A DNA stretch of 50,520 bases from Oceanivirga salmonicida (GTDB lineage: Bacteria > Fusobacteriota > Fusobacteriia > Fusobacteriales > Leptotrichiaceae): NCBI RefSeq assembly GCF_001517915.1, contig NZ_LOQI01000004.1, forward strand, positions 1 to 50,520. Direction: 5' to 3'. Both the position numbers and the translations under genes were made by a program. Each line of letters opens with the position of its first letter. The stretch's first letter is position 1. This document shows, one piece after another, positions 24,127 to 27,083 of the stretch. The notes beneath the pieces were generated by a model. That model saw nothing but the letters and a program-made list of their open reading frames with translations. It did no database searches and was not told the DNA's origin.

Positions 24127-25323
24127 ATGGAAACTTTAAAATATATAAAAGAATATACTTTAAAAAGTAAAGATATTCCTTTGCTTGATTTTAGATTTTC
24201 TAGTTTTAAAAATGAAAATTTTAAAAATATAGAAAAACTAGAAATTTTAAAAATTTATAAAGATTTTTCTAAATTAAGACCATTAGATTTAGAAAATGAT
24301 ATAGATTCATTAGAAAAATTTATAAAAAATAGGAGAATACCTAATAATAGAGAAAATTTTGATAAGATTATAAACACTCTACCTTATGAAAATAGAAACT
24401 TATTAACAAGTTACATTGATATATCATTAGCATTATCATTAAATGATTCTTATTGGCTAGTGCCTAAAAATAGTAAGTTTTTATGGAAAGACTATAACTT
24501 ATATAACAATAACTTTTCAAAACTTATATCTGAAACTGCTTTTTTTGGAATAGAGCATAGCATTAAAATGCTTACAACTTCCCCTGAATATACAACAAAT
24601 GGAGCAATAAAAAAATGTTGGTATAGATATGACAATGGGAAAACTGTATTATTTAAGTCAAATAGTGTAGAATATGCTAATAGGGGTAAAGAAGCCTATA
24701 CCGAATTTTATACAGGTCAAGTTGCTAAATATTTTGATTTTGATTATGTGAAATATGATTTAGTTAATTATAAAGGAAATATAGTATCTGCTTGCGATAT
24801 TTTCACAAGTGAGAAAATTTCATATGTACCAATATTTAAGGTTTTAGATAAGAAAGATAATAATAATTTAGAAAAAATTAATGAAATTATGGGTTATGAT
24901 TTTATGGCAGACATGTTAGTATTTGATTCATTAATAGGTAATATAGATAGACATTTAGGAAATTTTGGGTTATTAAGAAATAATGACACAGGAGAAATTT
25001 TAAGACCAGCACCAATATTTGATAATGGTTTATCGTTTATAAATTTAATATCTAGTTTTGAATTAGACAGAAAGGATTTAAGCAAATACTATTTTTCTAA
25101 TTATAAGGATTCATTTTTAGAGGGCTTTGAGAGTATAGTATATAAATATGTAAATGAAAAGCACTTAAAAATATTTGAAAAATTAAAAGATTTTAAAATA
25201 GAAAAACATTCAAAGTATAATTTAGATGATAAATGGTTAAAAGCATTTGAAAATTTTGTTAGAGAAAATGCTAAAATGTTTATAAATATATATATGATAA
25301 AAAAGGAAAAATATGTTAAATAA
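24127..25323 (+). CDS. HipA-like serine/threonine kinase, putative toxin
   Basis: A 398-residue protein with a HipA-type kinase fold in its second half: the ATP-lysine strand TVLFKSNS, the helix EAYTEFYTGQVAKYF, the catalytic loop NIDRHLGNFG (Asp274, Asn279) and the metal motif FDNG (Asp299, the DFG equivalent). The N-terminal 140 residues, including a segment like IPNNRENFDKI and LSLNDSYWL, match a HipA-like group known from Clostridia as single proteins without a HipB partner. HipA kinases phosphorylate translation factors, notably glutamyl-tRNA synthetase; the target here is unknown. No HipB-type DNA-binding antitoxin is encoded nearby. It overlaps the first fic gene by 11 bases and follows glyS closely. 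Confidence 0.78.
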   Translation: METLKYIKEYTLKSKDIPLLDFRFSSFKNENFKNIEKLEILKIYKDFSKLRPLDLENDIDSLEKFIKNRRIPNNRENFDKIINTLPYENRNLLTSYIDISLALSLNDSYWLVPKNSKFLWKDYNLYNNNFSKLISETAFFGIEHSIKMLTTSPEYTTNGAIKKCWYRYDNGKTVLFKSNSVEYANRGKEAYTEFYTGQVAKYFDFDYVKYDLVNYKGNIVSACDIFTSEKISYVPIFKVLDKKDNNNLEKINEIMGYDFMADMLVFDSLIGNIDRHLGNFGLLRNNDTGEILRPAPIFDNGLSFINLISSFELDRKDLSKYYFSNYKDSFLEGFESIVYKYVNEKHLKIFEKLKDFKIEKHSKYNLDDKWLKAFENFVRENAKMFINIYMIKKEKYVK

Positions 25324-26044
25324 TATATTGCAAGAATTTTTACAAGAAAAGAAAATGAAATTAAAAGGTAGAATTTACCATTATACACAAATAAATTTTG
25401 CATATAATTCTAATCATATTGAGGGAAGTTCTTTAACAGAAGAAGAAACTAAATACATATATGAAACTAATTCTTTTATATCTGATAAAGAAAAAATTAC
25501 CAAAATTGATGATATAATAGAAGCCAAAAATCATTTTAAATGTTTTGACTATATCTTAGATACCATTAATGAGCCTTTAAGTGAAAAATTAATAAAAGAT
25601 TTACACAAAATTTTAAAAACTAACACTAATGATAGTGAAATAGACTGGTTTGCAGTTGGAGAATACAAGAAAAAACCTAATTTTATTAGTAATTTAAAAA
25701 CAACTAGTCCCAAACAAGTAAGATTTGAAATGAAAGCATTATTAGATAAATATAATGAGATACCAATTAAAAAAATAGAAAATATAATTGATTTTCATTA
25801 TAATTTTGAAACTATACACCCTTTTCAAGATGGAAATGGTAGAGTTGGTAGACTTATAATGTTTAGGCAGTGTTTGAAAAATAATATAGTACCATTTATT
25901 ATAAGTGAAGAATATAAGTTATTTTATTATAGGGGTTTGAAAAAATATAATGAAGATAAAGCATTTTTAATAGATACTTGTTTATCTTGCCAAGATAAAT
26001 ATAAAGAAATATTAAAAAAATTAAAAGTAGGAGACCAACTATAA
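25313..26044 (+). CDS. Fic family protein, class II (N-terminal inhibitory motif)
   Basis: A 243-residue Fic protein; such enzymes usually transfer AMP from ATP to a hydroxyl side chain of a target. The full catalytic motif HPFQDGNGRVGR sits at residues 169-180, with His169 as base. An N-terminal helix carries the inhibitory motif SNHIEG (Ser33-xxx-Glu37-Gly38), so by the usual scheme this is a class II Fic protein that holds itself inactive. It starts within the end of the HipA-like gene and its stop overlaps the next start, so the four-gene cluster is translationally coupled. The target is unknown. Its last codons contain the 19-bp repeat at 26016-26034. Confidence 0.9.
   Translation: MLNNILQEFLQEKKMKLKGRIYHYTQINFAYNSNHIEGSSLTEEETKYIYETNSFISDKEKITKIDDIIEAKNHFKCFDYILDTINEPLSEKLIKDLHKILKTNTNDSEIDWFAVGEYKKKPNFISNLKTTSPKQVRFEMKALLDKYNEIPIKKIENIIDFHYNFETIHPFQDGNGRVGRLIMFRQCLKNNIVPFIISEEYKLFYYRGLKKYNEDKAFLIDTCLSCQDKYKEILKKLKVGDQL
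26016..26034 (+). repeat. 19-bp direct repeat, left copy
   Basis: AAAAATTAAAAGTAGGAGA is identical to 27083-27101. After both copies the sequence continues to TATAATGA at a start codon, so the fic2 and ruvB starts have nearly the same upstream region. Confidence 0.75.
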
Positions 26045-26661
26045 TGACATTAAAAGATATTGAAAAATTCTATAATTCTATTGATAAAGATGAAGAAGAA
26101 AAATACAGTAAACTTAAATGTTATGATATTTATTCTAAAAAAATTAAATTTAAAAATAAAATTGGAACTATTGAAAACCTAATAGAAATACATAAATATA
26201 TTTTTGATAAAGTTTATGGGAATTTTGCTGGATTGGTAAGAGATAAACCTTTATACAAAGGCAATTTCATATTTTGTATGCCAATATACATTAATAGCAA
26301 TATAGAGCAAATAAATAATAATTTTGCCAAAACAATAGATGATATTATAGAAAAATATTGTGATGTAAATGTGTTACACCCTTTTTATGAAGGAAATGGT
26401 AGAAGTACAAGAATTTGGCTAGACTTGATATTAATTAAGAAATTTAAAGCAGCAATAGATTGGAATAAGGTAAATAAAAAAGATTATTTAGATGCTATGA
26501 AAAAAAGTATTGTTAATACTGATGATATAAAAGAGATTTTAAAAAATGCTATTACAACTAATATAGATGATAGAGAATTATTTATGAAAGGAATAGATGC
26601 ATCTTATGAAATTGAAAATATTAATAATTACAATACAAAAGATTTAGTAAAAGGAGAATAA
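26044..26661 (+). CDS. Fic family protein, class III (C-terminal inhibitory motif)
   Basis: A 205-residue single-domain Fic protein. The catalytic motif HPFYEGNGRSTR lies at residues 112-123 (His112; Glu116 in place of Asp, which is allowed). Near the C-terminus SYEIEN (Ser187-xxx-Glu191-Asn192) fits the inhibitory motif [S/T]xxxE[G/N], the place where class III Fic proteins such as the Neisseria enzyme carry it. It therefore probably regulates itself, perhaps through oligomer state as in that class; this is inferred from the motif. It is distinct in layout from the class II Fic just before it. It overlaps both neighbours by one base. Confidence 0.88.
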   Translation: MTLKDIEKFYNSIDKDEEEKYSKLKCYDIYSKKIKFKNKIGTIENLIEIHKYIFDKVYGNFAGLVRDKPLYKGNFIFCMPIYINSNIEQINNNFAKTIDDIIEKYCDVNVLHPFYEGNGRSTRIWLDLILIKKFKAAIDWNKVNKKDYLDAMKKSIVNTDDIKEILKNAITTNIDDRELFMKGIDASYEIENINNYNTKDLVKGE

Positions 26662-27083
26662 TGAAACCTAAAATAACGATTTTAAAAAATAGTACTGATT
26701 TATTTAATGTAGATATATTGAAAAATATACAAAAAAAATTACAAGATGATGATTTGGTATCTTTTAGAAAAAAAAATATAATTGATGATGATTATATTTT
26801 TGATAGAACTTCTTTTATAGAATCAAACTTAAAAGCATTAGGAGAATATAAAGAAAATTCAATTGATGATTTAATATTAAAAATTTCATACATGTATAGA
26901 ATAAGACCATTTGAGAAAAAAAACAAAGAATTTTTTAAAACTTGGTTAGACCTATATTTAGATAGAAAAATAAAAAAAAGAATAAATTGGAATAATATAG
27001 ACTATGAAATTTTTGAATTTATTTTAAAAAAAGATACAAATATGAATATTTTGAAAAAACTAATTGTTAATAATTTAATTTGA
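26661..27083 (+). CDS. degenerate Fic-like protein lacking the catalytic motif
   Basis: A 140-residue protein whose second half aligns with the preceding Fic: MYRIRPFEKKNKEFFKTWLDLYLDRKIKKRINWNNI corresponds to the neighbour's LHPFYEGNGRSTRIWLDLILIKKFKAAIDWNKV. The catalytic His is Arg82, and the GNGRxxR loop has been replaced by lysines and phenylalanines, while the flanking helix (TWLDLYL) and the xINWN strand remain. It cannot be an active AMP transferase. The frame is fully open over 140 codons despite nine consecutive A at 26768-26776, which argues that the protein is made and kept. It could inhibit or dimerise with the preceding Fic protein, or be a decaying duplicate. Confidence 0.7.
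   Translation: MKPKITILKNSTDLFNVDILKNIQKKLQDDDLVSFRKKNIIDDDYIFDRTSFIESNLKALGEYKENSIDDLILKISYMYRIRPFEKKNKEFFKTWLDLYLDRKIKKRINWNNIDYEIFEFILKKDTNMNILKKLIVNNLI

Follow-up and report, generated by a model that had tools for sequence, protein, structure and literature searches.

A cassette of an orphan HipA/CtkA-like kinase, two Fic proteins and a truncated Fic relative between glyS and ruvB in Oceanivirga salmonicida

Introduction

HipA targets tRNA synthetases, and class III Fic proteins target topoisomerases. Four overlapping open reading frames (ORFs) of Oceanivirga salmonicida bring relatives of both enzyme types together and raise the question of whether they form one coupled system or a local assembly of self-contained enzymes. 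A first-pass annotation had favored the former, with phosphotransfer and AMP transfer acting in series or on a shared target and a catalytically dead Fic protein as regulator. Here, we analyzed the 50,520-nt stretch of DNA containing these ORFs (hereafter the window) and compared them with homologs in Fusobacteriota, Campylobacterota and Clostridia.

Results

Gene content and genomic setting of the cassette

The four ORFs are present at 24127-27083 as annotated, all on the forward strand: KIN (24127..25323, 398 aa), an orphan HipA/CtkA-like Ser/Thr kinase; FIC2 (25313..26044, 243 aa), a class II Fic protein similar to C. difficile CdFic; FIC3 (26044..26661, 205 aa), a class III Fic protein of the NmFic/EfFIC kind; and DEAD (26661..27083, 140 aa), a truncated relative of class III Fic proteins with neither a catalytic motif nor an inhibitory helix. 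Consecutive genes overlap by 11, 1 and 1 nt. Such overlaps were rejected as evidence for one system because overlapping pairs are common in the window (13 of the 38 same-strand gene pairs outside the cassette). All four genes have a Shine-Dalgarno-like stretch upstream, and their coding scores are close to those of neighboring genes.

The cassette lies at the glyS/ruvB junction. The order ileS-lspA-glyQ-glyS-X-ruvB-rsmE is kept in three genomes of the same family, in which the cassette was not found at this junction; gene X in these relatives encodes a protein of approximately 170-200 aa unrelated to the cassette, with no Pfam match in the two copies scanned. In a genome of the same genus (G001), other genes are located upstream of ruvB. 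No terminator-like site was found on the forward strand from glyS to ruvB, and promoter-like matches in this interval were no more frequent than at the shuffled level, from which we infer that the cassette is probably cotranscribed with the glyS-ruvB housekeeping operon.

Several other features of these regions were recorded. A 240-aa ORF after rsmE (28836-29558) has no Pfam or PADLOC match and was not seen at the equivalent place in the three syntenic relatives, and in G001 rsmE is directly followed by a larger Fic gene, close to that ruvB region (L117, 3291-4439). The window also contains AbiE-type toxin-antitoxin genes (42197-43609), with AbiEi at 42197-42781 and an apparently split AbiEii (42774-43394 and 43391-43609).

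KIN is an orphan kinase of the HipA/CtkA type

KIN matches the Pfam families HipA_C (1.1e-5, 25.7 bits) and HipA_2 (5.8e-5, 22.9 bits) below their gathering cut-offs (30.5 and 27, respectively); it looks like a HipA-type kinase, yet cannot be assigned to either family. The PADLOC profile PDC-M03A gave a stronger match (7e-18), and among PDB sequences CtkA (3akj) was hit at 2.4e-6, restricted to KIN residues 238-303. The predicted structure (pLDDT 85.5, pTM 0.84) has CtkA and then HipA as its best PDB folds. An alignment of 34 homologs places the catalytic region from D274-R-H...N279 to PIFD299-N-G (24946..25023, forward strand), with K177 (24655-24657, forward strand) upstream of it as the candidate ATP-site lysine. 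K177, N272, R275, N279, P296, D299 and G301 are invariant in this alignment, and D274 and H276 nearly so. KIN thus combines the catalytic D/N/D residues with the predicted fold of HipA/CtkA-like kinases, and the earlier kinase call holds, with the Pfam scores noted above. Its likeness to H. pylori CtkA and to HipA-type kinases lies in the core fold and the catalytic residues; it differs from them in being without a HipB or HipS partner. CtkA, Fusobacteria and Campylobacter go unmentioned in the main text of a survey of HipA families (PMC8262856).

The absence of a DNA-binding antitoxin was also borne out: no helix-turn-helix (HTH) antitoxin of a hipBA-type module is encoded in the ORFs adjoining KIN or fused to its N-terminus. 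KIN belongs to a clade of Campylobacterota, Fusobacteria and Cardiobacteriaceae sequences (tree support 100/100), and in the loci of this clade that were inspected, neither a recurring partner gene nor an HTH fusion was seen. A missing antitoxin gene is the usual state of the clade; as an orphan Ser/Thr kinase of the HipA/CtkA type, KIN probably needs no HipB-like partner.

Beyond the phylum, a contig search with KIN alone as the query returned no match, and KIN-family loci were collected with an alignment query. The best 80 loci show that the family occurs widely across Clostridia and Campylobacterota, and about one third of the homologs exceed 440 aa. Many Clostridia homologs have a fused N-terminal Xre HTH (for example, L137, L139-L141, L143 and L145). 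Genes upstream of the homologs, where scanned, are mostly housekeeping genes, with one type III restriction enzyme. A fixed partner gene was considered and rejected, as none recurs in these 80 loci.

Some further HipA-like kinases were observed. A second, smaller one in the same genome (L022, 4346-5578) has an 84-aa ORF upstream. In L134 (5998-8923), L026 (3052-6298) and L274 (1403-2946), HipA-like kinases adjoin resolvase-like genes, two of the three with Fic genes nearby; the kinase of L026 is smaller, of another type, and lies between two Fic-type ORFs. These resolvase-linked kinases may be compared with the hipMP modules of PMC8262856.

FIC2 and FIC3 carry complete catalytic motifs and different inhibitory motifs

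FIC2 matches the Pfam Fic family (PF02661) at 3.2e-19 and 70 bits (cut-off 24), the PADLOC profile PDC-S04 at 2e-108, and the PDB entry 4x2e at 2e-30, its nearest relative being C. difficile CdFic. The complete catalytic motif HPFQDGNGRVGR (25817..25852, forward strand) agrees with HxFx(D/E)GNGRxxR, and the N-terminal motif SNHIEG (S33-G38, including E37; 25409..25426, forward strand) fits the class II inhibitory helix pattern (S/T)xxxE(G/N) of PMC5651007.

FIC3 scores 47.5 bits against the Pfam Fic family (cut-off 24) and 202 bits (4.5e-60) against the NCBIfam NmFic model (NF046029), which does not reach the curated cut-off of 230; judged by sequence, it is a close NmFic relative and not that equivalog. 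The nearest solved class III relative is EfFIC (PDB 5nv5, 1e-47). Similarity to EfFIC and NmFic extends over nearly the whole length and includes the complete catalytic motif HPFYEGNGRSTR (26377..26412, forward strand), of which H112, G119 and R123 are invariant in homologs, and the C-terminal inhibitory motif SYEIEN (S187-N192; 26602..26619, forward strand), of which S187, Y188 and E191 are invariant in eight homologs. FIC3 differs from these relatives in being accompanied by a dead relative and in scoring slightly below the NmFic cut-off. Thus, the class II and class III assignments stand, with both inhibitory motifs at the positions first proposed. EfFIC catalyzes the addition of AMP as well as its removal (PMC6408439), and by this likeness FIC3 may do both.

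Relatives of FIC2 and FIC3 are mostly single genes and also occur on plasmids and prophages. The link of the cassette to phage defense consists only of the profile matches PDC-S04 and PDC-M03A; one PDC-S04 system from elsewhere gave no phage defense when tested (PMC12409345).

DEAD, a truncated relative of class III Fic proteins, is probably a gene

The fourth ORF is a Fic paralog without the catalytic motif, as the first-pass annotation had recognized, and also a shortened one of class III. By alignment, RPFEKKNKEFFK (26904..26939, forward strand) replaces HPFxEGNGRxxR, with loss of the catalytic His and both glycines. The protein is truncated at both ends and stops before the C-terminal inhibitory helix. 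It has approximately 25% identity to FIC3 and matches the NCBIfam NmFic model at 1.9e-10; its predicted structure, built from a Fic alignment, is of moderate quality (pLDDT 72), with EfFIC as the best fold match (TMq 0.69).

No DEAD ortholog was found in 98 Fusobacteriota genomes at E <= 1e-4. The matches outside the host are frames of 200-318 aa, which we read as intact class III Fic proteins. A weaker match (3.8e-4) was located in a 121-aa frame at G006:C5, where ORF calling gave none of the Fic type.

From base composition alone, 140 open codons would occur by chance with a probability of approximately 2e-8, and DEAD is therefore probably a gene, open and translated. Its GC content of 17%, the lowest among the window ORFs of at least 120 aa, together with its truncation argues for relaxed constraint. 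The persistence of the open frame argues for some function, whereas decay is suggested by the base composition, the truncation and the fact that DEAD occurs only once. Taking the latter view to its end, DEAD would be a decaying class III Fic copy without any role, next to three genes to which it is unrelated. The lost motif and the single occurrence in the phylum search suit such a reading, but we consider it improbable, given the open frame, a good ribosome-binding stretch and a coding score similar to those of neighboring genes.

No linkage of KIN with Fic genes was seen in other Fusobacteriota

Among 98 Fusobacteriota genomes searched for KIN (E <= 1e-20) and DEAD (E <= 1e-4), 60 of which were also searched for FIC2 and FIC3, KIN occurs in five and is beside a Fic gene only in the host genome. 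No FIC2 or FIC3 gene adjoined the KIN homologs fetched from the 60-genome set, in which relatives of the two Fic proteins are separate from KIN, and in the tree FIC2 groups with lone fusobacterial Fic proteins. The exact four-gene set was seen in the host genome only among the genomes examined.

These results, along with the ordinary overlaps, speak against the claim of one coupled system. We regard it as rather unlikely that kinase and Fic proteins cooperate in series or on one target under the control of DEAD: the genes are tightly spaced and linked in some Campylobacterales, as described below, but no linkage was seen in other Fusobacteriota, most KIN and Fic relatives are single, and the window FIC2 groups with the lone fusobacterial proteins and not with plasmid copies. 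Action in series or on a shared target found no support, nor did an obligate pathway from kinase to Fic.

Kinase-Fic clusters in Campylobacterota

Kinases of the KIN clade are often near Fic genes in Campylobacterota (L231, L230/L246, L131, L247, L249, L228 and L134). On an H. cinaedi plasmid (L231), KIN is followed by a FIC2 ortholog with a 1-nt overlap, in the same order as in the cassette. A FIC2 ortholog lies 2.1 kb from the kinase on a C. helveticus plasmid (L230/L246) and 1.2 kb from it in C. concisus (L131). L247 has a class III Fic gene 0.8 kb from the kinase and a degenerate Fic gene further on; near the kinase, L249 has a frameshifted class III Fic gene and a FIC2-like gene, and L228 has a Fic gene with HPFREGNTR. 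The same gene order was seen for the KIN-FIC2 pair on the H. cinaedi plasmid, and the full set only in the host. In these clusters (L231, L230/L246, L131, L247 and L249), the same kinase clade is near FIC2- and/or FIC3-type genes; they differ from the cassette in having other partners (zeta toxin, HipA and an ArdC-domain protein), Arg/Lys-rich tails in several cases, and no DEAD ortholog.

Among the best 80 KIN-family loci, a Fic-motif ORF is in reach of the kinase in four, two from Campylobacterota (L131 and L134) and two from Clostridia (L140 and L202); with the latter as its only cases among these loci, a kinase-Fic linkage in Clostridia was rejected.

The linkage was evaluated in 299 Campylobacterales genomes, of which 10 contain KIN, 8 FIC2 and 29 FIC3. 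KIN and FIC2 co-occur in three genomes against 0.27 expected (p 0.0014), and KIN and FIC3 in three against 0.97 (p 0.06). Under random whole-genome placement, two linked KIN-FIC2 pairs have p ~1e-4 and two KIN-FIC3 pairs 2e-4, values that are optimistic in that distance limits and pair counts were fixed after the coordinates had been seen. When placement is confined to 200 kb, p rises to approximately 0.01, and within a 70-kb plasmid to 0.08-0.09, which is no longer significant and weighs against cooperation. The association in Campylobacterales is suggestive, and common carriage on mobile elements may be its cause. Most FIC2 orthologs of other Campylobacterales genomes stand alone, and Campylobacterota FIC2 copies stand apart from the window FIC2 in 82% of bootstrap trees. 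The situation in which each gene is found alone, which would have told against a system, therefore holds in Fusobacteriota and does not in Campylobacterales, where linkage exceeds random placement.

Kinase and Fic proteins of the plasmids in L231 (4839-7632) and L246 (6484-10677) have Arg/Lys-rich C-termini, which are possible transfer signals. In L247 (6308-12709), the kinase, the class III Fic protein and the ArdC-domain protein have C-termini PSKGR(N/R/G)R in common, and the degenerate Fic protein has LQYFEDCNKR at the motif position and the C-terminus HRKRG.

Such tails, some common within a locus (L231, L230/L246 and L247), and genes with a TraM recognition domain in L228 and L230 bring up another origin, in which the cassette would be a domesticated remnant of plasmid or conjugative-element cargo, with a kinase and Fic proteins that would be exported by type IV secretion in Campylobacterota and would here have lost their transfer signal. 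This origin seems doubtful: the window proteins have no Arg/Lys-rich tails, no such transfer genes are among the ORFs examined near the cassette, nothing in the trees of KIN and FIC2 points to a recent transfer of the two together, and the signal role of the tails is itself putative. Slightly less probable still is a real kinase-Fic module, put together more than once in Campylobacterota and again here, whose dead class III Fic would set the activity of its live relative through mixed oligomers, while kinase and Fic proteins would modify each other or one target.

Discussion

The reading we favor, by a modest balance of probability, is that modification enzymes, each self-contained and probably restraining growth, have been assembled locally, and that the likeliest cross-talk among them would be Fic-Fic pairing. 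A cassette of protein-modifying enzymes would have been inserted between glyS and ruvB, with KIN acting without a HipB-like partner and FIC2 and FIC3 acting as AMP-transferases, each held in check by an inhibitory helix of its own, at the N-terminus in FIC2 and at the C-terminus in FIC3. Each enzyme would most likely work alone on bacterial targets: judging from relatives, KIN on a protein of translation, for instance a tRNA synthetase, and the class III Fic protein on a subunit of a type II topoisomerase or a comparable target. Growth would be slowed once the restraint on an enzyme is relieved. If there is cross-talk, DEAD may join FIC3 in mixed oligomers, or FIC2 may lend its inhibitory helix.

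The closest precedent for such pairing is in C. fetus subsp. venerealis, where the class II protein Fic1 binds and neutralizes the degenerate Fic2, the class III protein Fic4 also binds Fic2, and the fic1 and fic2 genes overlap by 1 bp (PMC5651007). Both loci have a class II Fic gene clustered with a degenerate-motif Fic gene, a 1-bp overlap and no DNA-binding antitoxin. The inhibitory residues S31/E35 of C. fetus Fic1 correspond to S33/E37 of FIC2, a likeness drawn from the published description of Fic1. C. fetus Fic2 keeps the catalytic His and is toxic, whereas DEAD has lost the His and both glycines and is derived from class III; moreover, the cassette adds an active-looking class III Fic protein and a kinase. 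By analogy with this Fic-Fic inhibition (PMC5651007), a regulatory role of the dead Fic protein is possible. It should also be pointed out that our reading as independent parts may understate the relationship between kinase and Fic proteins, because their linkage in Campylobacterales exceeds random placement.

Each part of the cassette is of a known kind, and the set that includes a dead class III Fic protein is unusual. In the literature searched, we found no description of an orphan HipA-like kinase clade that clusters with class II/III Fic genes on mobile elements of Campylobacterota. Should kinase and Fic proteins be functionally associated, bacterial growth control would couple two protein modifications of different chemistry, and a regulatory role of the dead class III Fic protein, if confirmed, would broaden the kind of Fic-Fic inhibition described in C. 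fetus. Without a functional association, too, the kinase-Fic clustering in Campylobacterota is directly testable.
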